Below are positions 1 through 64,000 of a stretch of 64,000 nt of DNA, one piece after another; position 1 is the stretch's first letter; every line of letters begins with the position of its first letter. Where the stretch lies: contig CAJYHN010000010.1 in assembly GCA_913774665.1 (NCBI GenBank), forward strand, positions 496,001-560,000, written 5' to 3'. Source of the stretch: an uncultured Microbacterium sp. GTDB taxonomy: Bacteria > Actinomycetota > Actinomycetes > Actinomycetales > Microbacteriaceae. The position numbers and the translations under genes are program-made. A model generated the notes under the pieces. The model worked only from the letters and a program-made list of their open reading frames with translations, was not told the origin of the DNA and ran no database searches.

Positions 1-1
1 G

Positions 2-190
2 CTCGGCCCCGATGTCCTCGTCGACGGCGACTACGCCCTGACGTTCGCGACGGGCGCCTACTTCCGCTCGCGCGGCATCGCGTCGTTCCACCCGATCGCG
101 ACGATCGCCTTCACCGTCTCGGGCGAGGCGCACCTGCACGTGCCGCTGTTGCTGAGCCCCTTCGCCTATTCGACCTACCGCGGCAGCTGA
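2..190 (+). CDS. uraH: 5-hydroxyisourate hydrolase, C-terminal part
   Basis: The gene enters from the left edge; the last 62 residues and the stop codon are present. The product hydrolyses 5-hydroxyisourate to OHCU (2-oxo-4-hydroxy-4-carboxy-5-ureidoimidazoline) in urate degradation. The fragment ends in YRGS, the C-terminal tetrapeptide that separates this family from vertebrate transthyretin. It also carries the conserved HVPLLLSPFAYSTYRGS stretch, in which the first His and the terminal residues line the active site of known family members. It lies eight bases before hpxO in the same direction, and hpxO makes its substrate, so the two probably form an operon. The family call is firm; the N-terminus is not in the window. 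Confidence 0.93.
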   Translation, partial: LGPDVLVDGDYALTFATGAYFRSRGIASFHPIATIAFTVSGEAHLHVPLLLSPFAYSTYRGS

Positions 191-198
191 GGAGCGAC

Positions 199-1383
199 AT
201 GAAGGTCATCGTCATCGGCGCGGGAGTCGGCGGCACCTCCGCCGCCCTCGCCCTGCAGAAGCTCGGCCACGAGGTCGTCGTGTACGACCGCATGCGCGAG
301 AACCGACCGGTCGGTGCGGCCCTGTCGCTGTGGTCCAACGGCGTCAAGGTCCTCAACTGGCTCGGCCTGGGGCCGCAGGTCGCCGCCCTTGGAGGCCGGA
401 TGGACGACATGGCCTACTACGACGGCCACACCGGCGACGAACTCTGCCGCTTCAGCCTCGGCCCCGTCACGGAGCAGACCGGTCAGCGCCCCTACCCCGT
501 CGCGCGGGCCGACCTGCAGCAGCTGATGATGGATGCCGTGGGCGCCGAGAACCTCCGGCTCGGGATGCCGCTGACCTCGGTGTCCGAGACCGACGGGGTG
601 GTCACCGCCACCTTCGCCGACGGCTCCACCGACACCGCCGACCTGCTGATCGGAGCCGACGGAGCCAGGTCGATCGTGCGGGACTACGTCACCGAGCCCA
701 CCGGCATCCGTCCCGAACGCTCCTACTCGGGATACGTGAACTTCAACGGCCTCGTCGCGGCCGACGAGCGGATCGGACCGCTGGATCATTGGACCACCTA
801 CGTCGGCGACGGCAAGCGCTGCGCCGTCATGCCCGTCGCGGGCGACCGCTTCTACTTCTTCGTCGACGTGCCCGGGCCCTCGGGGGTGGTCGAAGACCGC
901 ATGGCGGCGCTCGAGCACGCGTTCGGATCGTGGGGCGCTCCCGGAGTGCGGGCGCTGCTCGACAGCATCGACCCGGACGAGTCGCTCAACCGCGTGGAGA
1001 TCTGGGACATCGACCCCTTCGACACCTGGGCGCGGGGGCGCGTGGCGATCCTGGGAGATGCGGCGCACAACACGGCGCCCGACATCGGTCAGGGCGCGTG
1101 CTCGGCGCTCGAGGACAGCTTCGCGCTCGGCATCGTCTTCGCGACCTCGACCCTCGGCGTCGAGGACTCGCTGAAGCGCTACGAGCGCATCCGCACCGAG
1201 CGGGCGGGCGACCTGGTGCTGCGCGCCCGCAAGCGCGCCCATGAGACGCACGCCTTCGACGTCGCCGCGACCCAGGCCTGGTACGAGGGCCTCCGCCGCG
1301 AGGACGGCACGGGTGTGATCCGTGGGATCGTCGGCAACATCGAGGGCAGCCCGGTCGAGCTGGGTGCGAGCGTGATGCGCTGA
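199..1383 (+). CDS. hpxO: FAD-dependent urate hydroxylase (HpxO type)
   Basis: A 394-residue group A flavin monooxygenase predicted to turn urate into 5-hydroxyisourate with NADH and O2. It starts with a GAGVGG dinucleotide-binding loop (residues 7-12), has the middle ADGA segment near residue 154, and the second FAD motif GDAAHNTAPDIGQG near 285-298. From memory it aligns along its length with Klebsiella HpxO: VGAALSLWSNGVK, RPYPVARADLQ, GYVNFNGLV, DHWTTYVGDGKR and LRARKRAHETH all have counterparts. The Arg of the GDGKR segment (about 207) matches the urate-binding Arg region of HpxO. The ATG follows GGAG by five bases. It sits directly downstream of uraH, as expected for the pathway; a generic FAD monooxygenase is the only real alternative. 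Confidence 0.9.
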   Translation: MKVIVIGAGVGGTSAALALQKLGHEVVVYDRMRENRPVGAALSLWSNGVKVLNWLGLGPQVAALGGRMDDMAYYDGHTGDELCRFSLGPVTEQTGQRPYPVARADLQQLMMDAVGAENLRLGMPLTSVSETDGVVTATFADGSTDTADLLIGADGARSIVRDYVTEPTGIRPERSYSGYVNFNGLVAADERIGPLDHWTTYVGDGKRCAVMPVAGDRFYFFVDVPGPSGVVEDRMAALEHAFGSWGAPGVRALLDSIDPDESLNRVEIWDIDPFDTWARGRVAILGDAAHNTAPDIGQGACSALEDSFALGIVFATSTLGVEDSLKRYERIRTERAGDLVLRARKRAHETHAFDVAATQAWYEGLRREDGTGVIRGIVGNIEGSPVELGASVMR

Positions 1384-1440
1384 GGCGGCGCTTCGAACCT
1401 CGTCCCGCTTCAGGCCGCCTGCGCGGGCGGCGCTGCACCC

Positions 1441-1603
1441 TTGTCCCACTTCTGGTTGGGCTCGGGCGGCGCGGCGATGCGCCCTTGTCCCACTTCTGGT
1501 TGGCCTCGGGCGGCGCGGCGACGCGCCCTTGTCCCACTTCTGGCTGGTCCCGCGGGCGCCAGCCCGCACAATGTGGGACAGGGCCTGCACAAAGTGGGAC
1601 ATG
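1441..1603. repeat. Family D intergenic repeat cluster (TTGTCCCACTTCTGG)
   Basis: This 350-base gap between hpxO and the next gene has no gene. It holds three direct copies of TTGTCCCACTTCTGG at 1441-1455, 1485-1499 and 1529-1543, 44 bases apart, each followed by a GC-rich spacer. Two inverted relatives follow: CAATGTGGGACAGGG (1569-1583) and CAAAGTGGGACATGG (1589-1603). Any direct copy could pair with either inverted copy (TGTCCCAC with GTGGGACA), so alternative hairpins are possible. I see no coding potential. The remainder up to 1733 has no motif I recognise. Confidence 0.75.
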
Positions 1604-1733
1604 GTCTGCGCGAACGGGGATGCGGGCGCGCCGGCAGGGCCGGGCGTGTGACCTCGCGTGACGCGGACCGGCCGGCCCCTCCGGTCGCCCGTGGCACCGT
1701 GGGACGGACACATCCACGCCGCCGGGAGGCACC

Positions 1734-2084
1734 ATGTCCGAGTACTTCGACCGCACCGCCGACAAGACCTTCACGAAGGTCTACAAGGCCGAGACGCCCG
1801 ACATCCTCGCCGCGTTCGCCGCGTTCGACCAGGCCGTGTTCGCCCCCGAGGGGCGCGCGATCCCGTTGAAGTACCGCGAGCTGATCGCCCTGGCCGTCGG
1901 CATCACCACGCAGTGCGTGTACTGCATCGACGGGCACTCGCAGAACGCCGTGAAGGCCGGCGCCACCGAAGCCGAGCTCGCCGAAGCCGCCTGGGTCGCC
2001 ACCGCCATCCGCGCGGGCGGCGGCTACGCGCACGGACGCCTCGCTTTCAAGCTCGCCGACGACGCCCGCCCCCACGAGCACTGA
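1734..2084 (+). CDS. Carboxymuconolactone decarboxylase / AhpD-like protein
   Basis: A 116-residue single-domain protein of the CMD (AhpD-like) family. The signature CVYCIDGH gives a Cys61-x2-Cys64-x3-His68 redox centre, the arrangement used by alkylhydroperoxidase AhpD, so a peroxidase or disulfide-reductase role is more likely than ring-opening decarboxylation. The helix before it (YRELIALAVGI) and the C-terminal GGGYAHGRLAFKLA region fit the family, and the length is typical. The ATG is preceded by GGGAGG with suitable spacing. The gene stands alone after the family D repeats and its substrate cannot be read from context. Confidence 0.85.
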   Translation: MSEYFDRTADKTFTKVYKAETPDILAAFAAFDQAVFAPEGRAIPLKYRELIALAVGITTQCVYCIDGHSQNAVKAGATEAELAEAAWVATAIRAGGGYAHGRLAFKLADDARPHEH

Positions 2085-2096
2085 CGGTTCCTGCCC

Positions 2097-3422
2097 ATGG
2101 TCGACGACATCGGGTCTAGGTCGCCGCAATCGGGCGGACCGCCGCCCGACGCCCTCGAGGCGGAGGCGCTGGAGTTCGTGCGCGCCCTGATCCGTATCGA
2201 CAGCGTCAACACCGGAGACCCCGCCACGATCGGTGACGGTGAGACCCGGGCGGCGCGGTTCGTGCAGGCGCAGCTCGAGGCCGCAGGCTATGAAACCACC
2301 CTCGTCGAGCCCGTTCCGGGGCGCGCGAGCGTGATCGCCCGCTTGGCCGGTTCGGATCCGGATGCCGGTGCCCTCGTCGCCCACGCGCACCTCGACGTCG
2401 TGCCGGTCGACGCCGCCGACTGGACCCACCCGCCCTTCGGGGCGGAGATCCACGACGGCATCCTGTACGGACGCGGCGCGGTCGACATGAAGGACTTCGC
2501 CGGGATGCTGCTGGCGATCGCGCGGGCGTTCCGGCGCGAGGGGATCAAGCCCCGGCGCGACCTCGTCTTCGCGTTCTTCGCCGACGAAGAGGCCGGGGGC
2601 GTGTGGGGCGCGCGCTGGATCGTGCAGCATCGCCCCGAGCTGTTCGCCGGGGCCACCGAGGCCATCAGCGAGGTGGGCGGGTTCTCGCTGCCGCTGCCCG
2701 GGGACCGGCGCGCGTACCTCGTCGCCACGGCCGAGAAGGGCGTCTCGACCGCGACGCTCACCGCCCGCGGTCGCGCCGCGCACGGCTCCCGGCCCACCGC
2801 CGACAACGCCGTCGTGCGCCTCGCGCAGGCCGTCGCCGCGGTCGGCGCGCACGCGTTCCCGGTGGTTCACACAGCCGCGCTCGAGCGCTTCGTCGACACC
2901 TGGGAGCGCGCGGGCGGGCGTCTCGACGACCTGGGGTTCGCGGCATCCCTGATCGATGCGGGCATGCGCAACACGGCCTCGCCCACGGTGCTCGCGGCGG
3001 GAGGGAAGGCCAACGTCATCCCCGCGGCGGCGAGCGCGACGCTCGACGTGCGGATCGTTCCCGGGCAGCACGACGCGGTGCGCGCGGAGCTCGCCGCCGT
3101 GGTCGGCGACGACATCGAGGTGACGTGGGCGCGCGACATCGCCGCGATCGAGGCGCCGGTCGATGCGCCCCTGGTCGAGGTGCTGCAGCGGGCGATCGGC
3201 GCCGAAGACCCCGATGGAATGGTCGTGCCCTATCTGCTGCCCGCCAGCACCGACAACAAGCACCTCAGCCGGCTCGGCATCCGCGGCTACGGGTTCGTGC
3301 CCCTGCGCGTGCCCGCCGATTTCGACGTCTTCGGGCAGTTCCACGCCGCCGACGAATGCGTGCCGGTGGAGGCGCTCGCGTTCGGCACGCGGGTGACGGC
3401 GCGGATCCTGCGCGAGGCGTGA
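2097..3422 (+). CDS. M20-family metallopeptidase (ArgE/DapE-like deacylase)
   Basis: A 441-residue cytoplasmic zinc hydrolase of the ArgE/DapE/ACY1 branch of M20. The metal ligands are visible: HAHLDVVP with His98 and Asp100, GAVDMKD with bridging Asp130, and the DEEAGG box with catalytic Glu164 followed by Glu165. The central lid domain follows (ARGRAAHGSRP, near residue 225), then a C-terminal metal-binding region with STDNKHL. Likely substrates are N-acyl amino acids or small dipeptides; the sequence does not fix which. The start lies 12 bases after the preceding stop with a poor ribosome-binding site, so translation may depend on the upstream gene or begin slightly further in. Confidence 0.85.
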   Translation: MVDDIGSRSPQSGGPPPDALEAEALEFVRALIRIDSVNTGDPATIGDGETRAARFVQAQLEAAGYETTLVEPVPGRASVIARLAGSDPDAGALVAHAHLDVVPVDAADWTHPPFGAEIHDGILYGRGAVDMKDFAGMLLAIARAFRREGIKPRRDLVFAFFADEEAGGVWGARWIVQHRPELFAGATEAISEVGGFSLPLPGDRRAYLVATAEKGVSTATLTARGRAAHGSRPTADNAVVRLAQAVAAVGAHAFPVVHTAALERFVDTWERAGGRLDDLGFAASLIDAGMRNTASPTVLAAGGKANVIPAAASATLDVRIVPGQHDAVRAELAAVVGDDIEVTWARDIAAIEAPVDAPLVEVLQRAIGAEDPDGMVVPYLLPASTDNKHLSRLGIRGYGFVPLRVPADFDVFGQFHAADECVPVEALAFGTRVTARILREA

Positions 3423-3466
3423 GCCGGCGGTCAGCTCCGCGCGAAGCTCGTGCCGGCGCCCGGCAC

Positions 3467-3878
3467 GCACAACTCCTACAGAACCGCGGCTCCAGCGCCC
3501 CGCAACCGCGCCTGGTACGGGTCGTGCAGCAGTTGTGCGCGGCCCCGATGGGCCCGGCCCGGCAGGCCGCCCGGCCACGGGTAACCGCGCGCATCCCGCG
3601 GGGCCTGACCCGACGCCCGGCACGCACAACTCCTGCAAAACGGCGGGTGCAGGGCTCCGGAACCGCTCCCGACACAGGTCACGCAGGAGTTGTGCGCCGC
3701 ACCCACCGGCGCGGCCCGCCGCCCGGCCCGGCCCGGCGACCGGCCAGCGGCCCGGCCACAGGTCACCGCGCGCACTCCCCGCGGAGCCGGAGCCGACGCC
3801 CGGCCCGCACAACTCCTGCAGAACCGCGGCTCCAGCACCCCGCAACCACTCCTGGCACCGGTAACGCAGGAGTTGTGC
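3467..3878. repeat. Three family A hairpins, 72 nt each
   Basis: The 668-base gap before the amino-acid transporter carries three elements of exactly 72 nt at 3467-3538, 3624-3695 and 3807-3878. Each begins GCACAACTCCTRCA and ends TGCAGSAGTTGTGC or a close variant, so the ends form a perfect or near-perfect 14-15 bp stem. The loops share CCGCGGCTCCAGC in copies one and three. Spacers of about 85-111 bases are themselves similar (GGCCACRGGTMACCGCGCGC). From 3879 to 4090 there is the probable promoter region of the transporter, including the near-palindrome CGCATTGCGATGCG at 3963-3976, possibly an operator. Confidence 0.85.
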
Positions 3879-4090
3879 CCGCCCCGCCCGCCGGTCGCGC
3901 GGCGTGAGCCGGACGTACCCGACCCCACCGCCCGCCGTCCAGCGTGTTACCGCGCATGGCGTCGCATTGCGATGCGTGGCAGGTCGTTTCGACGTGTGAA
4001 TGGCCGCCTCGCGGCGTCCTCCGACACCGTCGTACCGTGACGCAACCCACCGGCACCCCGTGCCGTTTCGGAAAGCCCGAGGAGCACGTC

Positions 4091-5134
4091 ATGACCACCA
4101 CCGCGCCGGCCCCCGCCGACCGCTCGACAGCGCCCGCGACGGCGCCACGGCCGACCGCCAAGGTCGATCTCGGCACCATCGCCGTCGTGCCCACCCGCCA
4201 CTGGTGGCGCTGGATCCTCAGCGCCCTGCTGCTGTTCGTCGTCGCCCAGTTCGCCTGGAGCCTCGTGACGAACGACCGCTACATGTGGGGGACGTTCGCG
4301 CAGTACTTCTTCTCGGAGCCCGTGCTGATCGGCATCGGCTACACGCTCTCGCTCACCGCGATCTCCGCCGTCGTCGGCTTCTCGCTCGGCACGCTGCTGG
4401 CGCTGGGCCGACTGTCGGCATCGCCCCTGCTCAGCGCGGTGGCGTGGGGCTACATCTGGTTCTTCCGGTCGGTGCCCCTCGTCGTGCAGATCATCGTCTG
4501 GTACAACCTCGGCTACCTCTATCCGACCCTGGGCCTGGGCACCCCCTTCACCACCGATTTCTGGATCGTCGAGTTCCCCACGGTCCAGCTCGTCAGCGCC
4601 TTCGCCGCCGCGATCCTCGGTCTCGGCCTGCACCAGGCGGCCTACTCGGCCGAGATCATCCGCGGCGGGCTCGTCTCGGTGGACCCCGGCCAGCACGAGG
4701 CGGCCGCAGCGCTCGGCATCCCGGCATCCCGCCGACTGTTCCGCATCATCCTGCCGCAGGCGATGCGTTCGATCGTGCCCAACGCGACGAACGAGATCAT
4801 CGGACTCGTGAAGGGCGCGTCGGTGGTGTTCGTCATCGCGATCCCCGAGCTGTTCTACGCCGTGCAGGTGATCTACAACCGCAACAGCCGCGTGATCCCG
4901 CTGCTGCTGGTCTCGGTGGTCTGGTACACCCTCATCACGACGATCCTGAGCGTCGCGCAGTACTACATCGAGCGCCACTACGCCCGCGGATCCGCCCGAG
5001 CACTGCCGCAGACCCCGGCGCAGCGCGCCCGCACCTGGGTGAGCACGCAGTGGGCGCGGCTCGGAGACTCCCCGGCTCCCCCGGGAGGAACGGATGCCGA
5101 GACCCCTGCCACCCCGAAAGGAGGCCGGGCATGA
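4091..5134 (+). CDS. Polar amino-acid ABC transporter permease
   Basis: A 347-residue inner-membrane permease of the HisM/GlnP family. About five or six hydrophobic helices are visible, starting at WRWILSALLLFVVAQF, and the family's EAA loop appears as GGLVSVDPGQHEAAAALGIPASR, where the ATPase docks. The segment RSVPLVVQIIVWYNLGYL is typical of polar amino-acid permeases. I chose this ATG because GAGGAG lies eight bases upstream; the frame stays open further upstream but without family sequence. Stop and next start overlap as ATGA. One permease gene suggests a homodimeric channel. The substrate is uncertain: basic or sulfur amino acids are plausible given the neighbouring flavin oxygenases. 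Confidence 0.9.
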   Translation: MTTTAPAPADRSTAPATAPRPTAKVDLGTIAVVPTRHWWRWILSALLLFVVAQFAWSLVTNDRYMWGTFAQYFFSEPVLIGIGYTLSLTAISAVVGFSLGTLLALGRLSASPLLSAVAWGYIWFFRSVPLVVQIIVWYNLGYLYPTLGLGTPFTTDFWIVEFPTVQLVSAFAAAILGLGLHQAAYSAEIIRGGLVSVDPGQHEAAAALGIPASRRLFRIILPQAMRSIVPNATNEIIGLVKGASVVFVIAIPELFYAVQVIYNRNSRVIPLLLVSVVWYTLITTILSVAQYYIERHYARGSARALPQTPAQRARTWVSTQWARLGDSPAPPGGTDAETPATPKGGRA

Positions 5135-5913
5135 GCGCGGTCACCACCACCCGCGGACTCGTCGAGGTGCATGGAGTGCGCAAGAGCTTCCACGGCGTCG
5201 AAGTGCTGAAGGGCATCGACCTCACCGTCGAGCCGGGTGAAGTCGTGGCCCTGCTGGGCCCGAGCGGCTCGGGGAAGTCGACGCTGCTGCGCACCATCAA
5301 CCACCTCGAGACCGTGGATGCCGGCTCGGTCACGGTCGACGGCGACTTCATCGGCTACGAGCTGCGCCACGGAAAGCTGCACGAGCTGCGCGAGCGCGAG
5401 ATCCTGCAGCGGCGGACCCAGGTGGGGATCGTGTTCCAGAACTTCCACCTCTTCCCCCACCTGACCGCGCTCGAGAACATCATCGAGGCGCCGCTCGCTC
5501 TCAAGCGCCTGGTCAAGAGCGAGGCGCGCGAGCTCGCCCTCGGCCTGCTCGACCGGGTGGGCCTGGCCGAGAAGGCCGACGCCCACCCCCGGCAGCTGTC
5601 GGGCGGTCAGCAGCAGCGCGTCGCGATCGCCCGTGCCCTCGCGCTGCAGCCCAAGGTGCTGCTGTTCGATGAGCCGACGAGCGCACTCGACCCCGAGCTC
5701 GTGGGCGAGGTGCTGGACGTCATCCGCGACCTCGCGAAACTCGGCACCACGCTCGTGATCGTCACGCACGAGATCGGCTTCGCCCGCGAGGTCGCCGACC
5801 GCGTGGTCTTCCTCGACGAGGGACGCATCGTCGAGGAAGGCTCGCCCGACGAGGTGCTGGGTCGCCCGCAGCATCCGCGCACGCGCGAGTTCCTCGCGAA
5901 GGTGCTGGGCTGA
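5131..5913 (+). CDS. Amino-acid ABC transporter ATP-binding protein
   Basis: A 260-residue ATPase that powers the permease encoded just upstream. It has Walker A GPSGSGKST (43-51), Q-loop in FQNFHLFPH, signature LSGGQQQR (156-163), Walker B with Asp180-Glu181 in LLFDEPTSALD, and the switch His213 in THEI. Length and order of motifs are those of the polar amino-acid (HisP/GlnQ) group. The start is set by a strong AAAGGAGG at 5117-5124 and overlaps the permease stop by four bases. Substrate is not determined by this subunit. Confidence 0.95.
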   Translation: MSAVTTTRGLVEVHGVRKSFHGVEVLKGIDLTVEPGEVVALLGPSGSGKSTLLRTINHLETVDAGSVTVDGDFIGYELRHGKLHELREREILQRRTQVGIVFQNFHLFPHLTALENIIEAPLALKRLVKSEARELALGLLDRVGLAEKADAHPRQLSGGQQQRVAIARALALQPKVLLFDEPTSALDPELVGEVLDVIRDLAKLGTTLVIVTHEIGFAREVADRVVFLDEGRIVEEGSPDEVLGRPQHPRTREFLAKVLG

Positions 5914-6051
5914 CACCCCGCCGCCTCGACCGACCACCCGCGCAGGTGCGCGAGCCCCTCGACCGGGGCCCCACCCTCACCCGTCGATTCACCCGACCCC
6001 GCGGCGCGACACCGACCCCGCGGTATCCACACCCTCACGAGGAGACACAGC

Positions 6052-7032
6052 ATGGCTCTCAGCAGGAAACAGGGGATCGCTCTCGGCGTGATCGCCGCAG
6101 CCCTCGTCGCCGTCGTCGGCGTCGGCGTCACCATCGGCCTCAACCGACCGACCGATGCGGTCGCGGCGCCCGAGCCCTCGGCATCCGCCACGAACGCCCC
6201 CGCGGAATGGGTGCACACCGACGCCGTGCCCGACGCCGTCGCGGCCCTGAAGGCGAGCGGCTTCACCCCCATCGAGCCGGGCAAGCTGACGGTCGCCGTC
6301 GGCGCGTTCACCCCTCCCCTGAGCTACGTGCCCGAGGGTGAGACACTGCCGTCGGGCACCGAGCCCAACATCGGTTCGCTCATCGCCGAAGGGCTCGGCC
6401 TCGAGTACAACCCGGTCGTGGTGGCGTGGGCGGACTGGCCCCTCGGCATCCAGTCGGGAAAGTACGACCTGATCACCGCCAACGTCACGGTGACCGAGGA
6501 GCGCAAGGAACTGTACGACTTCGCGAGCTACCGGCAGGATCTGCTGGGCTTCGCGGTGAAGTCCGACAGCACGATCGACAAGATCGAGACCGCCGACGAC
6601 ATCTCGGGGCTGAAGATCGTCGTCGGCTCGGGCACCAACCAAGAGAAAGTGCTGCTCAGCTGGAACGAGAAGCTCTCCGCCGCCGGCAAGGCCCCGGCCG
6701 ACCTGCAGTACTACGACGACACCGCCGCAGCGACCCTCGCCCTGCTCTCGGGCCGCGTCGACGCGACATTCGGACCGAACGCGACCGCCGCGTGGGCGGC
6801 GCGCGATACCGGTGAGACGAAGGTCGTCGGCGTGGTTCCGGGCGGTTACCCGCTGCAGGCCGACATCGCCGCCGGCACCAAGAAGGGCAACGGCCTCGTC
6901 GAGCCGGTGCAGATCGTGCTGAACGACCTCATCGCGAGCGGGAAGTACGCCGAGGTCCTGAAGGCCTGGAACCTCGACTCCGAGGGCATCTCGACCTCGC
7001 AGATCAACCAGCCGGGACTCCCGAAGTCCTGA
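6052..7032 (+). CDS. Amino-acid ABC transporter substrate-binding protein
   Basis: A 326-residue extracytoplasmic solute-binding protein (SBP_bac_3 type) serving the preceding permease and ATPase. Residues 9-30 form one hydrophobic segment with no lipobox cysteine, so it is either anchored by an uncleaved helix or released after signal cleavage near AVA-AP. The binding fold follows: PGKLTVAVGAFTPPLSY, the Asp-rich DLITANVTVTEERKELYDFAS region, and the hinge region GLKIVVGSGTNQEK. An ATG with GAGGAGA upstream defines the start. A strong hairpin follows directly, closing this transport operon. The ligand is unknown. Confidence 0.9.
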   Translation: MALSRKQGIALGVIAAALVAVVGVGVTIGLNRPTDAVAAPEPSASATNAPAEWVHTDAVPDAVAALKASGFTPIEPGKLTVAVGAFTPPLSYVPEGETLPSGTEPNIGSLIAEGLGLEYNPVVVAWADWPLGIQSGKYDLITANVTVTEERKELYDFASYRQDLLGFAVKSDSTIDKIETADDISGLKIVVGSGTNQEKVLLSWNEKLSAAGKAPADLQYYDDTAAATLALLSGRVDATFGPNATAAWAARDTGETKVVGVVPGGYPLQADIAAGTKKGNGLVEPVQIVLNDLIASGKYAEVLKAWNLDSEGISTSQINQPGLPKS

Positions 7033-7040
7033 CTCCCCGC

Positions 7041-7072
7041 GCACGGCCCGGTCTTCCTCGACCGGGCCGTGC
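7041..7072 (+). terminator. Hairpin terminator after the amino-acid transporter
   Basis: GCACGGCCCGGTC (7041-7053) and GACCGGGCCGTGC (7060-7072) form a perfect 13-bp GC-rich stem with a six-base loop, eight bases after the substrate-binding-protein stop. There is no clear U-tract, which is common for actinobacterial terminators. Confidence 0.8.
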
Positions 7073-7101
7073 CGTGCGTTCGCCGGAGAAGAATGGATGC
7101 C

Positions 7102-7605
7102 ATGACCACGACCCTCACCGTCCGACGTGTCGCCCCGCACGAGTACGCGCAGGCCGGGCGGATCACCGCCGAGGCCTACCGCGCCAGCTACGACGGACTG
7201 TCGGAGGCGTACCTCGCCTCGCTCGCCGACGTCGCCGGCCGGGTGGAACTGGGCGAGGTGTGGGTCGCCCTCGACGGCGACGAGATCATCGGCACCGTCT
7301 GGACGCCGCGGCCCGGCGAGCGGCTCTCACCCCTCGCCCGCGAGGGAGAGCTCGACTTCCGCCAGCTCGCGGTGGCGCCCTCGGCGCGCGGCCGCGGCGT
7401 CGGCGAGCTGCTCACGCGACACGTGCTCGACCTCGCCCGCGATCGCGGCGCGACCCGCGTGGTGATGAACAGCGGCCCGGAGATGCTCGGCGCGCACGCG
7501 CTCTACCTCAAGATGGGCTTCCGCCGCCTGACCGAGCGCGAGCACCCGGTCGAGGTCGAGCCCGGGCGCGTCATCGACCTGCGGGCGTTCGGGATCGACC
7601 TGTAG
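7102..7605 (+). CDS. GNAT-family N-acetyltransferase
   Basis: A 167-residue acetyltransferase. The acetyl-CoA pyrophosphate loop is seen as LAVAPSARGRGVGELL (motif A, R-G-R-G-V-G), followed by the C-terminal strand-helix LYLKMGFRRL that closes the fold. GGAGAAG at 7085-7091 is ten bases before the chosen ATG; another in-frame ATG nine bases upstream and a GTG at 7069 are less well placed. It follows the terminator of the transporter operon. The acceptor substrate is unknown. Confidence 0.85.
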   Translation: MTTTLTVRRVAPHEYAQAGRITAEAYRASYDGLSEAYLASLADVAGRVELGEVWVALDGDEIIGTVWTPRPGERLSPLAREGELDFRQLAVAPSARGRGVGELLTRHVLDLARDRGATRVVMNSGPEMLGAHALYLKMGFRRLTEREHPVEVEPGRVIDLRAFGIDL

Positions 7606-7700
7606 AGCGCTGCGCACTCACTCCGCCGTCGGCGAAGGTCAGCCGGCTTTCCCCGCGTCGGATCGAGGTTGCGCGAAACGCCGAGCGGGCGCTCGGGGTC

Positions 7701-37098: not shown

Positions 37099-37099
37099 C

Positions 37100-53148: not shown

Positions 53149-53166
53149 GACGGACTCCTTCGTCGG

Positions 53167-55438: not shown

Positions 55439-55450
55439 GCCGCCAGCCTA
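55439..55450 (-). promoter_or_regulatory. Leaderless -10 box (TAGGCT)
   Basis: On the minus strand TAGGCT (55445-55450) ends six bases before the ATG of the DUF4241 gene. The box overlaps the 3' end of the DUF429 gene upstream. Confidence 0.55.
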
Positions 55451-56197: not shown

Positions 56198-56280
56198 CCC
56201 GTCGAGCCTACGCGCCGCCGCCGACCGCGCGGCCCGTCAAGACCTCGCCGAAAGGCCGCGCGACCTGGGAGGATCAGCAC

Positions 56281-56652: not shown

Positions 56653-56689
56653 GCGGAATACCGCCCGACGCACGGCGGTTCTCGCTCCT

Positions 56690-57571
56690 ATGACGCCGGA
56701 TGCCGCTCTGGAACGCGCCCTGTCGAGCATCGATGTGCGGCCGGGTCACGCGTGGCGGCAACCGCTCGCCGCGGGCGACACCCTGTCGCTGAAACACGGC
56801 GAGGCAGCGATCGTCTACCTCCGCGACGGCGAGATCACCGGCCGCACGACAGCGCGCTCGGCCTGCACCGTCGATGCCTCGTCTGGTGAGGCGGCAACCC
56901 TCGACGGCAGCCGCACGTTGCTCTCGGGAGACGCCCTCATCTCGCTCGGGTGCCACGCCGTCGCCGTATCGTCGCAGTCGGGCGCCGAGGTGACGGTGGT
57001 GCCGCTCGAGGTCGTCCCCAGTCTCGACACGCGCGCTCTTCCGCCCCTGATCTTCGTCAGCGGTTTCGCCGGGGCCGAGCCGGCCGCCGCCGGACTCGCC
57101 GCTCACCTGGGTCTGCCGAAGCCGGGCTCCGGTCGCCAGGGCGATGAGACGATCTGCCGACTCATGGTCACGACCGTGCTGCTGTCGGCGCTGCGCGCAT
57201 GGGCCTCGTCCCAGCGCGAGGCGGCGTGGCCCCCGCTCAGCGACGACCCGTTCCTCTCGCGCGTGGTCACGGCCGTCGCCGACGACCCCGGGCGGGAGTG
57301 GACCCTCGACCAGCTCGCGGCGCTCGGGGCGATGTCGCGGTCGGTTTTCGCCGCGCGCTTCCGCGAGGTGTTCGGCACCTCGCCCGCCTCGTACGTGACC
57401 GACGTGCGCATGCGCCGGGCGAAGGAGCTCCTCGATGCCGGCACCTCGGTGTCGGAGACGTCGCGGTCGCTCGGATACGGCTCGGACGAGGGCTTCCGCC
57501 GGGGCTTCCGCCGTTACACCGGCGTCGCCCCCTCGGCCTGGCGCACCGCACGGCGGCCGTTGACGGTCTGA
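56690..57571 (+). CDS. AraC-family regulator with cupin_6-type sensor
   Basis: A 293-residue regulator. Residues 1-190 resemble a cupin sensor (LSLKHGEAAIVYLRDGE and a SGFAGAEP segment). Residues 195-290 hold two helix-turn-helix units: WTLDQLAALGAMSRSVFAARFREVFG, then SVSETSRSLGYGSDEGFRRGFRRYTGVAPSAWR, listed in fragments. It converges on an MFS exporter gene and very probably controls it, as similar AraC/MFS pairs do. The start lacks a good ribosome-binding site. Confidence 0.88.
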   Translation: MTPDAALERALSSIDVRPGHAWRQPLAAGDTLSLKHGEAAIVYLRDGEITGRTTARSACTVDASSGEAATLDGSRTLLSGDALISLGCHAVAVSSQSGAEVTVVPLEVVPSLDTRALPPLIFVSGFAGAEPAAAGLAAHLGLPKPGSGRQGDETICRLMVTTVLLSALRAWASSQREAAWPPLSDDPFLSRVVTAVADDPGREWTLDQLAALGAMSRSVFAARFREVFGTSPASYVTDVRMRRAKELLDAGTSVSETSRSLGYGSDEGFRRGFRRYTGVAPSAWRTARRPLTV

Positions 57572-57600
57572 GAGGAACGCCAGACGAGCGGCCCACCCAC

Positions 57601-57627
57601 GGCCTCCGCGGGGAGGTGCGGGAGGCC
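57601..57627. terminator. Possible bidirectional terminator
   Basis: GGCCTCC (57601-57607) pairs with GGAGGCC (57621-57627) in the gap between convergent araC-type and MFS genes, with partial pairing continuing outside (GCGGCC / GGCCGC). Stem strength is moderate. Confidence 0.45.
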
Positions 57628-57639
57628 GCCCGTCGCGAC

Positions 57640-58839
57640 TCAGACCGCGGCGGGGCGGCGTGAGCGCAGGGACAGCCCGAACAGCACGGCCCCGAGGATG
57701 AGGAGCGCGATGCCGATGGCATCCGCCGCGAACACCCCGGCCGCGTCGACGAGGATGCCGCCGGCTCCCGCCGCGATCGTGATCGCGAGCTGGAAACCGG
57801 TGACGACCAGACTGCCGCCCGCCTCGAGACGGTCGGGCATGAAGTGCCCCACCCAGGTGTTCACGATGATCAGCCACGACGAGAAGAAGAAGCCCCACAC
57901 CAGCACGGCTGCCGCCACCGCGGCGAGAGACCCGGGCAGAAGGGCGACAGTCGCGATCGCGAGGGCGATCGCGAGGGGGCCGATGACAGCGAGGCGGGCG
58001 AACGCCCGGTCGACGACCATGCCGACCGCGATGTTGCCGACGAACCCGCCGACGCCGAGCAGGGCGAGCAGCAGCACGATCGTGGAGGCATCGACGTCGG
58101 GGATGCGCTCGAGCGAGAGGCGCACGTAGGTGTAGGCGAGGAAGTGGCCGAGCACGACGAGCACGTGACCCGTCATGCCACCGAAGACGCCGGGCCGGCG
58201 CAGGGTGTCGCCGAGGATGCGCAGGCTCGACGCCGCCGCCGGAGGCACGGGCGGCAGCATCACCCGCACGGCGACGCCGACGAGGGCGCTCGCGACGGCG
58301 ATGAGCAGGAACGCGAGCCGCCAGTCGAGCGCCTCGCTGAGGGCGACGCCGATCGGCACACCCGCGACGGTCGCGAGCGACAGCCCCGCCGAACCGAACA
58401 TCATCGCCCGTCCGATGCGGTCGGGGCTCGACAGGCGCGCGGCCACGGTGATCGACATCGACCAGAACGCGCTGATGGCGGCGCCCAGCAGGAAGCGCGC
58501 GAGGAGGATCGCGGGCAGGCTCGGGGCGATCGCGACGACGAGGCTCGACACCGCGGCCGACGACGCCGCGGCGACCAGGAGCGAGCGGCGATCGAGCCGC
58601 GGCAGCAGCAGCCCCACGGTCGGCGCGAACAACAGACCCGCGAGGGCGGTGACGGTGACGGTCTGGCCCGCTTGCCCGGGCGTCACGCCGAGGGCGGCGG
58701 CCATCTCGGTGAGAACACCGTTGGGCAGGAACTCCGCCGTGACGAGCAGGAAGCTCAGCAGCATCACGACGACGAGTCCGCCGTAACGCATCACGGGGAC
58801 CCCCGCGACGGGGGTGGGAACGGGAGCGGTGGTGGTCAT
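57640..58839 (-). CDS. MFS transporter (arabinose-efflux / DHA1 type)
   Basis: A 399-residue twelve-helix transporter of the AraJ/DHA1 type. It has LLSFLLVTAEFLPNGVLTEMAAALGVTPGQAG at the N-terminus, the motif-A-like LLLPRLDRRSLL, and the motif-C region FGSAGLSLATVAGVPIGVAL (GxxxGPxxGG-like). The ATG chosen is preceded by GGAGC; the frame is open for 18 codons upstream, which would add an unlikely polar extension. Expected role is drug or sugar efflux, under the neighbouring AraC-type regulator. Confidence 0.88.
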   Translation of the reverse strand: MTTTAPVPTPVAGVPVMRYGGLVVVMLLSFLLVTAEFLPNGVLTEMAAALGVTPGQAGQTVTVTALAGLLFAPTVGLLLPRLDRRSLLVAAASSAAVSSLVVAIAPSLPAILLARFLLGAAISAFWSMSITVAARLSSPDRIGRAMMFGSAGLSLATVAGVPIGVALSEALDWRLAFLLIAVASALVGVAVRVMLPPVPPAAASSLRILGDTLRRPGVFGGMTGHVLVVLGHFLAYTYVRLSLERIPDVDASTIVLLLALLGVGGFVGNIAVGMVVDRAFARLAVIGPLAIALAIATVALLPGSLAAVAAAVLVWGFFFSSWLIIVNTWVGHFMPDRLEAGGSLVVTGFQLAITIAAGAGGILVDAAGVFAADAIGIALLILGAVLFGLSLRSRRPAAV

Positions 58840-58918
58840 GCTCCGATGCTCGTCCGACGCCGGAGCGGGCGCCCGACCGTTCGTCCGCGGCATCCGACCG
58901 ATCGTCCGGGCGAGGCGA

Positions 58919-60001
58919 TCACCCCGTGAACGGCCTCCCCACGTACCGTGCGGCCGGGCGGATGATCTTGGGGTCGGCCGCCTGCTCGAGCACGTGAGCG
59001 GTCCAGCCGATCGTGCGGGCCAGAGCGAAGGTGGGCGTGAACATCGCGCGCGGGATTCCGCACTGCTCCATCACCACGGCGGCGTAGAACTCGACGTTGG
59101 CGTGCAGCGGGCGCTCGGGCCGGCGTTCCGCGAGCTGCCGCTCCGCCTCCCGCTGGAAGGCCAGGGCCTGGGCGACGCGGTCTCCGCCGAGCCCTTCGGC
59201 GACCCCGCGGAGCAGCTCTGAGCGAGGGTCGCTCGTGCGGTAGACCGCGTGCCCGAAGCCCATCAGACGCCGCCCCGCGGCGAGCTCCCTCGAGATCCAG
59301 GGGGCCGGGTCGTCGCCGGCGCGGTCGAGGCTGTCGAGGGCGCGAGCCGGGGCTCCGCCGTGCAGCGGGCCCGAGAGGGCGCCGAGCGCTCCGGTGAGGC
59401 AGGATGCCATATCGGCCCCGGTCGACGCGATGACCCGGGCCGTGAAGGTCGAGGCGTTGAAGCCGTGGTCCATCGCCGCGACGAGATACGCCGTCAGTGC
59501 GCGGACGTGTTCCGGGTCGGGCTCACGGCCCGTCACGCGCTGGAGGTAGTCGGCCACGACGCCTCGTCCGCTCGGGGCCCCGGGCGCAAGGGCGAGCGGT
59601 GCCACCGCGGCGAAGGCGATCGCCTCGTCGAGCCGCGCGTCGGGCTCGAAGTCGTACAGCGGTCCGGACGAACGGGCGGATGCCGCGAGCGTCCACACCG
59701 CGCGCAGGGCGGCGAGCGGCTGCTCGGTGCGGGCCGTGACCGCGGCGATCAACTCGGGCAGGGCGGGATCGGCCTGGGCCGCCGAGACGCGAGCGGCGAA
59801 GAGGGCTCGGGTCGCGGCATCCGGAAGCTCTCCGACCACCAGCAGGTGCCAGACGTCCTCGAAGGACCTCGTGCGGGCTAGATCCACCGCCGAGAAGCCG
59901 CGGTAGTGGTAGATGCCGGCGTCGCCGTCGACGTCGCTGATTCTCGTCTCGGCCGCGACGACGCCGTTGAGGCCGCGGGGTACTTCGATCAGGTCGCTCA
60001 T
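58919..60001 (-). CDS. citA: Citrate synthase (CitA/citrate synthase 2 type)
   Basis: A 360-residue citrate synthase of the short actinobacterial type. Catalytic His residues are in [14 protein letters not shown] and [13 protein letters not shown]. At the third catalytic position it has Glu in [11 protein letters not shown] in place of the usual Asp; from memory Glu is normal for mycobacterial CitA-type enzymes. It starts [21 protein letters not shown], as in that group. It condenses oxaloacetate with acetyl-CoA, or propionyl-CoA as methylcitrate synthase. It is divergent from a second, HTH-fused citrate synthase with 52 bases between. Confidence 0.88.
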
Positions 60002-60033
60002 GCGCCCAGTGTGCGAACATGACGAACACAGCG

Positions 60034-60043
60034 TCAACGTTGA
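60034..60043. promoter_or_regulatory. Palindrome in the divergent citrate-synthase promoter
   Basis: TCAACGTTGA is a perfect 10-bp palindrome in the 52-base gap between the two divergent citrate-synthase genes. The gap also has the near-direct repeat CGAACATGACGAACACA (about 60014-60030). Either could bind a regulator of both promoters, for instance the HTH-carrying enzyme itself. Confidence 0.5.
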
Positions 60044-60053
60044 TCGGATCAAG

Positions 60054-61235
60054 ATGAGCCCGCCTCCTCCCCGTCTTTCCGCCGCGCAGGTGGCCGCCCG
60101 CCTCGGCGTCAAACCCGAGACCGTCTACGCGTACGTGTCGCGCGGCCTCCTCCACCGCGAACGCGACGCCCGCGGCTCGACCTTCGACGCTCTCGAGGTC
60201 GAGGCATTCGCCGCGGGACGCCGCCGCACGGCCGCCCGCGTGCCGTCCCACCCCACGACGGGCATGCCCCTCGGCGTCGTCCAGACCGACGTCGCCGACA
60301 TCGAGGACGACGAGCTGATGTACCGCGGGCGTCGGGCCCGCGACCTGATGAATCAGCCGTTCGCAGAGGTCGTGGCGTGGCTGTGGGACGCGGAACGCAT
60401 CGACGCCCCCGACCCCGCGATCGGCAGCGCCCGGGCCATGGTCGAGGCCCTTCCGCTCCACGCGGGGCCGATGGACCGGCTCCGCGCCGCGTTGACCGGC
60501 TTCACCGCCGACGACCCGTTGCGCTACGACGCCTCGGCCGCCTCCGCCCATCGCATCGGCTGGACGCTCCTCACGGGGCTGCCCGTCGCTCTGGGCGGGC
60601 GTCCGCATTCCGATCTCGCGCGCTCGCTCACGAGCACGTGGACCACGACCGCCGGTGACGCGACGATCACCGCCGTCAACGCCGCGCTGGTCCTCGCCAT
60701 CGACCACGACCTGGCGGTCTCGACGTTCGCCGCGCGCGTCGCGGCTTCGGCGCGCGCCGACGGTTACGCCGCCGTCAGCGCCGCCCTCGGCGCGGCCGAT
60801 TCCCCGCTGCACATCTCCGCCGCGACCCGGACCGCGCGACTCCTCGCCCGCGTGCACCGCGGTCAGGAGCCCGAGCGGGCGCTGACCGATGCGCTGCAGG
60901 AGGGAAATGGCATCCCGGGCTTCGGACATCCCCTCTACGCCGGGGGCGACGACCGGGCAGCGGCCCTGTTGCCGCTCCTCGCGGAGCTCCCCGACGGGGA
61001 TCGGACGATGGATGCCGTGCGGCGATTGTCCGCGGTCGTCGCCGACCGGGCGGGGTTGCGGCCCAACGTGGATCTCGCTCTGGCGGCGGTGGCATCCGGA
61101 GCCCGACTTCCCGAGGACGCGGCGAGCACGATCTTCGTACTGGGGCGGATCGCGGGATGGATCGCGCACATCGCCGCGGAGTACGCCGAGCCCGCGATGC
61201 GACTGCGCCCGCGCGGAGAGTATGTGGGGCCGTGA
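60054..61235 (+). CDS. Citrate synthase with N-terminal helix-turn-helix
   Basis: A 393-residue fusion. Residues 7-40 are a MerR/excisionase-like helix-turn-helix ([29 protein letters not shown], split here at the turn) with a short wing ([17 protein letters not shown]). Residues 75-390 are a citrate-synthase domain. Catalytic His residues are in [15 protein letters not shown] and [10 protein letters not shown], and Asp in [11 protein letters not shown]. The loop after the first His departs from the usual GPLHGGA. It may be active, a DNA-binding metabolic sensor, or both. Fusions of this form occur in other actinobacteria. Confidence 0.85.
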
Positions 61236-61243
61236 GGCTGGCT

Positions 61244-61267
61244 CCTAGCCATCTTCCTGGCTAGGAT
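61244..61267 (+). promoter_or_regulatory. Toxin-antitoxin operator overlapping the -10
   Basis: CCTAGCCA (61244-61251) and TGGCTAGG (61258-61265) form a perfect 8-6-8 inverted repeat. The -10 box TAGGAT (61262-61267) overlaps its right arm and lies six bases from the antitoxin ATG. This is the usual layout for antitoxin autorepression, combined with a leaderless start. Confidence 0.8.
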
Positions 61268-61273
61268 GCCGAC

Positions 61274-61525
61274 ATGATGTACAACGTCCTGGAGGCGCGA
61301 AACAACCTCTCCCAGCTCATCGCCGATGCCGAGTCGGGCGTCGAGGTGACGATTGCTCGACGAGGTGTTCCCGTCGCCAAGATCGTGCCGATCGACTACC
61401 TGCCCGAGCGCGCGGGCAACGCTTTCGCGCAGTGGCTGGAGAAGAACCCCCTGACGCCCGAGCGCGCCCGCCCGGTGGACGAGATCGAGGCGATCATCGC
61501 CGAGAACCGGGCCGCCGGGGCGTGA
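61274..61525 (+). CDS. Phd/YefM-type antitoxin
   Basis: An 83-residue antitoxin. The N-terminal half is the Phd/YefM DNA-binding fold (YNVLEARNNLSQLIADAESGVEVTIARRGVPVAKIVP, residues 3-39, quoted in part by position), the C-terminal half a toxin-neutralising tail (PVDEIEAIIAENRA). It should bind the inverted repeat just upstream and repress the module. Two adjacent ATGs open the frame; either may be used. Its stop overlaps the toxin GTG (GTGA). Confidence 0.9.
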   Translation: MMYNVLEARNNLSQLIADAESGVEVTIARRGVPVAKIVPIDYLPERAGNAFAQWLEKNPLTPERARPVDEIEAIIAENRAAGA

Positions 61526-61935
61526 TCTACGTGGACAGTTGTCTGGTGATCTATGCGGTCGAGCGCGACGACGAGGTCGGTGAGCGCACACGCGCCACCC
61601 TCGCTCGCGCCGACGAGCCCCTCGCGACGAGCCCCCTGGTCATGATGGAGGCGTTGGTGAAGCCGATGCGGGCGAGCGATGCCGAGGCGCAGCTGACCCT
61701 GTGGAGCGCTTTCGATGCCTTCGAGCTTCTTCCGGCCGACCCCGACGCGTTCCTGGACGCCGCGCTGCTGCGTGCTCGCCACCGCGGGCTGAAAACGGCC
61801 GACGCCCTGCACCTCGCGATCGCCCGCCAGGCCGGATGCACGGCGCTGTGGACGAACGACTCGCGCCTGTCGGTCGCGTCCGGAGGCCTCGCCATCGACA
61901 TTCTCAACGATGCCGATGCGGGCCGGGCCGCCTGA
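61522..61935 (+). CDS. PIN-domain toxin (VapC-like RNase)
   Basis: A 137-residue PIN-domain protein. The acidic metal site is formed by Asp5 (IYVDSCLVIYAVE), Glu in MMEALV, Asp in KTADALHLAIA and Asp in WTNDSRL. Known VapC toxins cleave tRNA or rRNA when freed from antitoxin. It begins with GTG overlapping the antitoxin stop, and its own stop overlaps the next start (TGATG). The Phd-type antitoxin with a PIN toxin is a common mixed pairing. Confidence 0.92.
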   Translation: MIYVDSCLVIYAVERDDEVGERTRATLARADEPLATSPLVMMEALVKPMRASDAEAQLTLWSAFDAFELLPADPDAFLDAALLRARHRGLKTADALHLAIARQAGCTALWTNDSRLSVASGGLAIDILNDADAGRAA

Positions 61936-62393
61936 TGCGCCGCACCGCGGCCCTCGTCATCGCCGCCCTCTGCGTCTCGCTGTCCGCCTGCTCCGCCCCC
62001 GCGCCCGAGCCGCGAATCGCGGCGAAGCACGGCGATGGGCGCCTTCGCACCGACCTCGCCCCCCTCGCCGAGAGATATCCGCAGCTCGCGGCCGCCGAGT
62101 CGGTCGAGTGGATGGGCGGCACGCTCGGCTCGAGCGATGCCGGCCCCTCCACGTACTGGGTCGACGTGATCGCGGTCATGCCGGAGTCCGAGATCGACGT
62201 CTATCGATCCACCGCGGACCTCGTGAGAGTCGATCCGCCCACCCTCATCGAGGACCTCGCGCCGAAGCTCCCGACCGGTCCGTTCGAAGGAAGCCCGGAG
62301 CTCGACGACCTGTTCTCGTCGGGCGGTCACGGCGCGACGGTCGCCATCGACCCGCAGAAGCGCACGGTGGTGATGTCGGGGGTCTTCGACTGA
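61935..62393 (+). CDS. Hypothetical lipoprotein coupled to the toxin gene
   Basis: A 152-residue protein with a lipoprotein signal (AALVIAALCVSLSACSAP, lipobox LSAC). The mature part has no known domain; WMGGTLGSSDAGPSTYWVDVIAVMPESEI is its most ordered-looking segment, given here by its region 55-85. Its ATG overlaps the toxin stop by one base (TGATG). Being third in a toxin-antitoxin transcript is unusual for a lipoprotein; this may be a chance insertion of the module upstream of it. The 133 bases after it hold no recognised gene. Confidence 0.75.
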   Translation: MRRTAALVIAALCVSLSACSAPAPEPRIAAKHGDGRLRTDLAPLAERYPQLAAAESVEWMGGTLGSSDAGPSTYWVDVIAVMPESEIDVYRSTADLVRVDPPTLIEDLAPKLPTGPFEGSPELDDLFSSGGHGATVAIDPQKRTVVMSGVFD

Positions 62394-62526
62394 CTCTCAG
62401 CCCCTCGCCGCCCCGACGAGCGCGAGGACGCTGCTCAACCCCTCGGGCGTTCCCGGCCAGTGGCGCTCGATGGCCGGCATCCGGGCATGACGGATGGCGC
62501 AGGGCGATCGCGCGGGCATGGCCCGC

Positions 62527-63354
62527 TCAGTCGCTCTTCCACCCGCGGGCCATCTCGACGACGGCGGCGACCGCGGCCTCGGTGTCGGCGGACGAACCAC
62601 CGGCGCGACCGGCGACCAGACCCGCGACGAAGGCGCTGAGCGGCGCGGCCGGTCGGGCCACCCCGTTCGCGACGTCGCGAGCCAGATCGAGGATCAACGA
62701 GATGGGGATTTCGCCCTCGGCCAGGCCGAAGCGCTTCGCGAGAGCGGCGCTCCAGTCGTTCAGCGCCTCGGGCGGCAGGGTGCGGGAATCGGTCATGGCT
62801 CCTCCTCGGGCTACCCGGAGATCGTCCCACGTGTCGATGTCGCGCGTCAGAGCCGCGTCCGCCTCGATCGCCCTCACCCGCAGCCCACCCAGCAATGCGC
62901 GCATCGAGGCGTCGCGTCCCCCGTCGGGGAGGCCGGATGCCGCTGCCCGCAGCGCCGCGGAACGGTAACGCCCGATGAGCCACTGTCGGCGGCCGTCGTC
63001 CAGACAGGCACCGTCGACGTCCGAGGCCAGTTGGTCGGGCAAGAGACCGACCGCGGCTCGGACGGTCGGCAGATCGCACGCCAGTACGAAGACCTCCTCG
63101 GCCTCCACGCGGGTCAGGGCGGCGACGATCGCCGCAGCAGGTCCGCCGAAGGGCGGGTCTTCGCGCACCCACTCGACGTCGAGGTCGGCGTCGAGAACGG
63201 GCGAGGCCACGATGATCCGCTGCGCACCATGGGCACGCACGGCGTCGGCGGCCGCGCGCAGCAGCGTCGTTCCGTTCACCTCGAACAGCGGTTTCGTCGC
63301 CCCGTCGACGCGCGAAGCGCGTCCGCCGGCGAGCAGGATCGCGTCCACGCTCAC
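62527..63354 (-). CDS. mobA: MobA-like nucleotidyltransferase fused to DUF6457
   Basis: A 275-residue two-part protein. Residues 1-185 are a MobA-like molybdopterin guanylyltransferase with LLAGGRASRVDGATKPLFEVNG (GTP loop, cut here at its core), WVREDPPFGGPAAAI, LACDLPTV (metal Asp) and DIDTWDDL. Residues 190-275 are a DUF6457-like helical domain (LNDWSAALAKRFGL). It attaches GMP to molybdopterin for bis-MGD enzymes. The GTG start overlaps the moeA stop (GTGA); an in-frame GTG one codon earlier is possible. Fusion of MobA to DUF6457 is seen in other actinobacteria. Confidence 0.85.
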   Translation of the reverse strand: MSVDAILLAGGRASRVDGATKPLFEVNGTTLLRAAADAVRAHGAQRIIVASPVLDADLDVEWVREDPPFGGPAAAIVAALTRVEAEEVFVLACDLPTVRAAVGLLPDQLASDVDGACLDDGRRQWLIGRYRSAALRAAASGLPDGGRDASMRALLGGLRVRAIEADAALTRDIDTWDDLRVARGGAMTDSRTLPPEALNDWSAALAKRFGLAEGEIPISLILDLARDVANGVARPAAPLSAFVAGLVAGRAGGSSADTEAAVAAVVEMARGWKSD

Positions 63355-64000
63355 CACAACAGCACCTCGACGGGATCACCCGCGCCGGTCGCCCGCGTGC
63401 TCGGGGGGATCACGGCGAGGCCGTTCGCGTCGCCGAAGCCGCGCGTCCCCCGCTCGACCGGCTCGGCCACCGGATGCGCGGGGTCGGACCGGTCGATTCG
63501 GACCGGTACGTACTGCGCCCGCTCGGCTCGCGCGCGCCACTCCTGGACCAACGGCACGACGGCACGGGAGCGACTGAGCTCGCGAGCGCCCTCGAGCGCG
63601 CGCAGGGCGGGCCGCACGAAGAGCTCGAACGATACCGCCGCGCTCACCGGGTTGCCCGGCAGCCCGAACAGCAGCGTCCCCGTCTCCGAACGACCGAAGC
63701 CCTGCGGCTTGCCCGGCTGCATGCGCACGGGCTCGAACCGCATGAGATCGCCGAGGGTGTTCTTCACGACCTCGTAGGCCCCCGCGCTCACCCCGCCCGA
63801 GAAGACGACGACGTCGGCGCCGGCGGCCTCGGCGACGGCGATCGCGCGGCGGGGTCCGTCGCCGCTGTCGTCGACGCTGGTGCGCAGCACGACCTCGGCC
63901 CCCGCCTCTTCGGCGAGACCGGCGAGCAACAGGCTGTTCGACTCGGGGATCTGCCCGCGCAGCAGCGGCGTTCCGGCGGGTCGGAGCTCGGATCCCGTCG
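63351..64000 (-). CDS. moeA: MoeA, molybdopterin molybdenumtransferase, C-terminal part
   Basis: The gene runs off the right edge; about 215 C-terminal residues are visible. MoeA inserts molybdate into adenylated molybdopterin. Visible blocks are TGSELRPAGTPLLRGQIPESNS (the TGxEL...GQIxxSN motif, in two halves), FSGGVSAGAYEVVKNTL (GGVSxG loop), QPGKPQGFGRSE and LFGLPGNPVSAAVSFELFV. The C-terminal domain IV ends GDPVEVLLW. It is coupled to the mobA-like gene by a four-base overlap, so the two cofactor steps are made together. Confidence 0.93.
   Translation of the reverse strand, partial: TGSELRPAGTPLLRGQIPESNSLLLAGLAEEAGAEVVLRTSVDDSGDGPRRAIAVAEAAGADVVVFSGGVSAGAYEVVKNTLGDLMRFEPVRMQPGKPQGFGRSETGTLLFGLPGNPVSAAVSFELFVRPALRALEGARELSRSRAVVPLVQEWRARAERAQYVPVRIDRSDPAHPVAEPVERGTRGFGDANGLAVIPPSTRATGAGDPVEVLLW

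Follow-up and report, generated by a model that had tools for sequence, protein, structure and literature searches.

Over-representation of GGATGCC in the window and in the genome

The 64,000-nucleotide window (the whole stretch analysed here, from contig CAJYHN010000010.1 of an uncultured Microbacterium sp.) carries 56 copies of the heptamer GGATGCC and 63 copies of its complement GGCATCC (Table 1), close to the roughly 55 and 60 counted by eye in a preliminary description of the stretch. Independent bases at the G+C content of the window (71.2%) give 7.6 expected sites per strand, in line with the 7–8 estimated in that description for random sequence of 70% G+C, and both strands together exceed the 15.2 sites expected from base composition 7.8-fold. 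The enrichment extends across the rest of the genome (3.58 Mb, 14 contigs), which contains GGATGCC 2725 times on the forward and 2762 times on the reverse strand, about one site per 650 bases with both strands taken together, whereas the reversed word occurs 212 and 163 times. A Markov-model check, proposed in the preliminary description, was run on 464 kb of the genome and upheld the enrichment at low orders: orders 1, 2, and 3 expect 103, 105, and 135 sites, respectively, against the 699 present, with GGATGCC as the highest-scoring 7-mer and GGATGCCG as the highest-scoring 8-mer. Orders 4 and 5 expect 296 and 499 sites, the models at these orders already holding most of GGATGCC itself. A ranking at maximum order masked the word, as the sub-words that make it up are inflated; lower Markov orders and a codon shuffle were therefore used.

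The heptamer also overrides codon bias, as had been claimed for the codon pairs GAT GCC and GCA TCC. In the 47 called genes (crude calls, made by the G+C content at codon positions, which also underlie the gene and gap densities and the pair locations given below), 102 sites were found, whereas shuffling of synonymous codons gave 25.0 ± 4.1 with a maximum of 36 in 300 shuffles; a codon-aware null model thus fails to reproduce the count. The same is evident from the codons themselves. Asp preceded by G and followed by GCC is encoded by GAT in 40 cases and by GAC in only three, while Asp ahead of GCC without the preceding G is encoded by GAC in 60 cases and by GAT in nine. Ala between G and TCC is encoded by GCA (26 cases) rather than GCG (four cases).

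The site proved to be sharply defined. GGATGCCG and GGATGCCA are present at 11.0 and 10.6 times expectation, whereas words derived from GGATGCCG by one-base changes at its first seven positions range from 0.56 to 2.07 times, and those with C or T at the last position of the 8-mer reach 1.3 and 0.46 times, respectively. Since these neighbour words lie near expectation and the two former words are high, the site is GGATGCCR and is nearly all-or-none; none of the one-mismatch words looks depleted in its favour. Sites occur in genes of both orientations (248 and 317 by orientation relative to the gene) and in gaps, as previously described, with densities of 1.55 per kb in genes and 1.33 per kb in gaps, and they are spaced almost at random (coefficient of variation, 1.10). 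Polarity was judged per block, because equal strands over a whole genome are also expected from two equal replichores. The strands are balanced in 21 blocks (353 to 346), and the scatter between blocks does not exceed that of chance (χ2, 12.6; P = 0.92), for which a 65:35 bias would give a χ2 of ~84. At offset +21 from the site start, C is found at 58% (z, 7.8) in the genome's own DNA; this position did not stand out in near relatives and was not considered further.

Inverted pairs of sites

Several sites of opposite orientation lie next to each other (Table 1). Two of the three palindromes noted in the preliminary description, at 8224 and 25428, are found exactly where they had been placed, and the third starts at 53218 instead of 53219. 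Close pairs (gap of 0–14) number 36 in stem-forming order and eight in the opposite order, with ~11 expected, in a count whose relative sets include same-region loci of near species, so that the pairs are not all independent. Among the 14 stem-order pairs in the genome's own DNA, four are intergenic and all four lie between convergent called genes. Each has a gene end within 20–62 bases, and for two of the four both ends are within 20–29 bases. Inverted pairs of the DNA uptake sequence (DUS) serve in terminators (excerpts of PMC2397512 and PMC3630211). As with the DUS, inverted pairs are found here, some of them at gene ends; they are rarer than those of the DUS, and transcription termination by the Microbacterium pairs is a putative function.

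Table 1. Positions of GGATGCC sites and of inverted site pairs in the window
Feature	Position	Strand	Details
GGATGCC sites (n = 56)	531..62941	+	starts: 531, 563, 2360, 5092, 5316, 7095, 8224, 8521, 10632, 13270, 14020, 14895, 15205, 16063, 16462, 17819, 18581, 18939, 19726, 20559, 22931, 24166, 24890, 25428, 26655, 28107, 28843, 31530, 32555, 35538, 36293, 36779, 37708, 38638, 40122, 41129, 42145, 43753, 44378, 47303, 48665, 49239, 49600, 51023, 53182, 53218, 54687, 55526, 56066, 56698, 57753, 59402, 59678, 61010, 61264, 62935
Opposite-strand sites, GGCATCC on + (n = 63)	703..62482	-	starts: 703, 2457, 2942, 3276, 4715, 4723, 6180, 6445, 8231, 9964, 10893, 11227, 11515, 12749, 13457, 15341, 15863, 17958, 19325, 21876, 22302, 22353, 22722, 23058, 23797, 24097, 25437, 26457, 26838, 27561, 28913, 31341, 32352, 33623, 35288, 37978, 38411, 39192, 40264, 40713, 41397, 41946, 44194, 47053, 47507, 48320, 48642, 49439, 50116, 51144, 52258, 52829, 53227, 54702, 55691, 56081, 56527, 57718, 58889, 59816, 60909, 61091, 62476
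Inverted pair, gap 0	8224..8237	.	inside called minus-strand gene, 24 b from 3' end
Inverted pair, gap 2	25428..25443	.	between convergent called genes, 24 b from 3' end of minus-strand gene
Inverted pair, gap 2	53218..53233	.	inside called minus-strand gene, 59 b from 3' end
Inverted pair, gap 8	54687..54708	.	inside called gene
Inverted pair, gap 8	56066..56087	.	inside called gene

Conservation of positions and dialects among relatives

The positions of the sites were compared with those of matched words in related species. In five near species (84–86% DNA identity), which are related to one another and thus do not provide independent counts, 122 of the 152 aligned sites are intact, the figure for matched words being 383 of 862. 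Remnants that differ by a single base account for 13 of the 152 sites as compared with 266 of the 862 words. In two species having other words, none of 26 and none of 21 positions are kept. Positions are kept better than controls in near species and turn over at greater distance, and therefore the density of the word persists while its places change.

The preliminary description had suggested a comparison with related genera, and this revealed enrichment from about 1-fold to 28-fold, together with dialects. The ratio of GGATGCC to a control word is ~4.7–24 in 34 congeners and 1.3–3.5 in 23 genomes of the order's other families. Within the Microbacteriaceae (299 genomes, 78 genera), it extends from ~0.9 to ~25, the lowest values being those of g69 (G104 and G166; 229 vs 245 and 223 vs 248) and the high end being represented by G110 (7364 vs 293), and in a set of 109 congeners it extends from 2.2 (G439; 507 vs 234) to 28 (G425; 9877 vs 351). 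In five of these 109 congeners (G206, G386, G393, G433, and G436), GGATCC replaces GGATGCC: they contain 6067–8244 GGATCC sites, compared with 341–1908 in the other 104, and their 812–1441 GGATGCC sites are among the lowest numbers of the set.

Further words were detected from both-strand counts in samples against an order-2 expectation, in which samples of 20–80 kb can miss weak words. The alternative words among the relatives comprise TGGTTCCG, GGATGGCC, GGATGCTG, GGATGCG, and CGGATCCT. For individual genomes, the counts are 131 vs 7.1 expected for TGGTTCCG in M. mitrae, 39 vs 5.4 for GGCCATCC in G032, 18 vs 1.3 for GGATGCTG in G380, 35 vs 3.3 for CGGATCCT in Frondihabitans, and 24 vs 0.9 for GTGGATGCG in Schumannella, and GGATCC reaches 86 vs 21 in g53 and 318 vs 79 in the metagenome-assembled genome SZAS-7. 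No clear word was obtained at this sampling in G415, G422, G390, G373, g54, g68, g63, g36, g34, g69, and g35. Other Microbacteriaceae share the word, have another one that mostly follows the pattern GGAT...CC, or have none detectable. Loci under 4 kb (L109 and L110) were left out of one of the tables of the analysis. At another locus (L125, start of C1 in G005), TACAACC and TGAGGGTG-type words are repeated 14–15 times in a 20-kb stretch as a local repeat. Altogether, the codon null, the genome counts, the conservation in near species, and the dialect switching support the earlier proposal of a genome-wide functional site, in the sense of a functional or driven site.

Low-GC stretches and phages

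According to the preliminary description, the word is absent from two lower-GC patches of the window and, more generally, from acquired DNA. The two site-free stretches do exist and are lower in G+C content (0.641 and 0.647), but their emptiness is not significant, the longest gap in the window (2675 b) being no longer than might be expected among 119 sites placed at random (P = 0.55). A lack of the word in acquired DNA is thus not demonstrated by the window, but gains weak support from elsewhere. In 2-kb bins over the 464 kb, the ratio of observed to expected sites is 2.7 at 60–65% G+C (15 bins) and 7.3 at 70–74% (114 bins), and four of five Microbacterium phages, the larger ones, are at 0.6–2.0 times expectation, but the fifth, Efeko, is at 5.1 times, the five together containing 77 sites with 47.5 expected. 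The called frames within the two stretches (45039–46532 and 53734–54240) have no Pfam match at an E-value of 0.01, and may not be genes.

Competence genes and a possible role in DNA uptake

The own genome encodes, side by side, ComEA (SLBB and HHH_3 domains), ComEC, and the delta subunit of DNA polymerase III (comEA–comEC–holA). It also has a tad locus that encodes T2SSE and T2SSF proteins, a small DUF4244 protein, and a TadE match below the Pfam cut-off. ComEC is intact in all 50 genome entries searched, including a 0.9-Mb genome (two pairs of entries are apparently one genome each), and a T2SSE match was found in 34 of 34 genomes; the counts of pilus ATPases do not follow the word. Such a com/tad gene set is needed for transformation in Micrococcus luteus (excerpt of PMC4322843).

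With moderate confidence, we consider GGATGCCR to be a genome-wide recognition word that may be kept by selection or molecular drive, its likeliest role being that of a DUS with dialects. The receptor of a competence machine composed of a Tad pilus and ComEA/ComEC would prefer DNA bearing the local word, uptake followed by recombination would spread and restore the word, and species with different words would exchange less DNA. We infer active competence, word-specific uptake, and a receptor that changes with the dialect. Somewhat more tentatively, the Microbacteriaceae, which belong to a Gram-positive phylum, might mark their genomes with a word particular to each lineage and recognised by Tad/ComEA/ComEC, so that changes of the word would form gene-exchange barriers between species.

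The resemblance to the DUS of Neisseriaceae and the uptake signal sequence (USS) of Pasteurellaceae extends to several features, as far as excerpts of the literature describe them. In both families, thousands of copies of one short word are scattered in both orientations over genes and gaps (PMC3630211, PMC2397512, and PMC2346458), and so they are here. The excerpted accounts also describe related-species dialects with a common core and genera without the word, as in the Neisseriaceae (PMC3630211), and the Microbacteriaceae show the same. Copies of DUS and USS are better conserved than their surroundings and competence genes are present in these accounts; likewise here, with the conservation seen in near species only. 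Unlike the DUS, the present word belongs to Actinomycetota having pilus genes of the Tad type instead of the Neisseria type, is an 8-base word with near-zero tolerance and with a palindrome among its dialects, and has a putative uptake role and a putative receptor.

Several observations weigh against an uptake role. Both ComEC and an ATPase of the T2SSE type are also encoded in g69, where GGATGCC (223–229) does not exceed the control word (245–248) and 20–80 kb samples showed no alternative word, as well as in further genomes that lack a clear word. No receptor changing with the dialect was identified, and data on uptake, binding, or competence in Microbacteriaceae were not found. At 77–79% identity, sites in two species are kept no better than controls (8/29; 4/15). 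The phage Efeko (L232; 17.5 kb, with a repressor-like gene) is itself 5.1-fold enriched in GGATGCC. Inverted pairs make up a small share of all sites, and the pairs of other words are too few to judge (for TGGTTCC, none in stem order, five in the order FF, and one in RF). Being all-or-none and bounded by a purine on one side, the word also resembles the site of an enzyme.

Uptake words have been described in Neisseriaceae and Pasteurellaceae, and searches of open-licence papers in PubMed Central (PMC) yielded none for Actinomycetota among the records listed. If GGATGCCR is an uptake word, the way in which such words originate, switch, and restrict gene flow could be tested in a large family that has several dialects and shows apparent losses, and transformation of Microbacterium would gain a practical tag. 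Otherwise, a word found family-wide and requiring neither of the methylase groups considered below is still without a cause.

Alternative explanations

The main rivals to uptake are a DNA-binding protein of unnamed kind and a methylation-linked site. GGATGCCR might be bound by a lineage-variable nucleoid, repair, or recombination protein that needs dense and undirected sites, which we regard as unlikely, though credible. The sharp site, its lack of polarity, its frequency of about one per 650 bases, the similar densities in genes and gaps, and the conservation above controls would all suit such a protein; however, the free turnover of positions and the quick switching of words across the genus call for a process that rewrites thousands of sites, and no candidate protein was found, none having been sought.

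A site linked to methylation seems rather unlikely. In this explanation, modelled on the cyanobacterial highly iterated palindrome HIP1, a methylase would modify the word, methylation-guided repair or protection would make and keep it, and a changed methylase would underlie each dialect. An orphan methylase of the beta-type N6/N4 class indeed gives strong matches in 20 of 23 genomes and is not found in the word-less g69; in another set of 44 genomes, 18 of 24 from the family and two of 20 from other families have strong matches. However, among the 109 congeners it is missing from G026, G388, and G425, and G442 has only a weak fragment-like match; G425 is the densest congener of all (9877 sites), an assembly gap there being possible. 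In addition, the central region of the orphan methylase is nearly identical across dialects, as judged by eye, and several genomes that lack a clear word encode the enzyme. Of 28 genomes, 14 have no C5 methylase, among them seven of the 16 with GGATGCC. Because the densest congener lacks the orphan methylase and these seven genomes lack C5 methylases, neither is required, and the simple methylase model was rejected for the two groups covered. In a tree of 19 methylase proteins, that of the GGATCC congener G206 adjoins one GGATGCC and one GGATGGCC congener (support, 0.84), with the split below the G206 group at 0.06 and all of them inside the Microbacterium clade (0.97).

In the own genome, the orphan methylase gene is located at 5206–6159 of L169 (C7, ~20.2–21.2 kb), with no restriction enzyme recognised beside it. 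The enzyme is found in most of the Microbacteriaceae covered, even in a 0.9-Mb genome, and its nearest solved relatives are M.RsrI and CcrM. In Campylobacter jejuni, transformation is reportedly marked by methylation through an orphan methylase, CtsM. A system of this kind would join the orphan methylase, the common word, and the uptake of self-DNA, but here the densest congener lacks the orphan methylase. HIP1 and the alternate HIPs of cyanobacteria are GC-rich words of similar density that are replaced in some lineages and have matching methylases (excerpt of PMC4390886), and a dense GC-rich word with lineage replacement is likewise seen here. According to the same excerpt (PMC4390886), HIPs are palindromic, whereas GGATGCCR is asymmetric, though its GGATCC dialect is palindromic.

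A polar site for a recombination enzyme or FtsK, similar to Chi or the FtsK-orienting polar sequences (KOPS), is very improbable. Chi and KOPS sites are polar, over-represented short words that differ between lineages, and a GC-rich, dense, and lineage-variable word would fit this type; the Microbacterium word shows no strand bias in the 21 blocks, and its palindromic GGATCC dialect is without direction, so that the Chi-like nature proposed in the preliminary description is not supported. An origin as a side effect of codon usage, protein composition, or mutation that depends on context is barely conceivable, for although the G+C content is high and Asp–Ala and Ala–Ser pairs are common, the codon shuffle leaves most sites unaccounted for, the excess is also found between genes, no neighbour word is depleted, and the GGATCC switch is discrete.

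Other features of the window

Scans of the window for tRNAs and Rfam families gave no matches, and a plasmid search with 25 kb of it gave only short matches among the best 20 of 70 records, the largest covering 3% of the query. A kdp potassium-transport cluster (KdpA, P-type ATPase, and KdpD sensor kinase) occupies 37100–44224. The source genome is Microbacterium-like, and the nearest matches of its KdpA (90–94% identical) are those of Microbacterium proteolyticum, M. testaceum, M. enclense, and one further Microbacterium.

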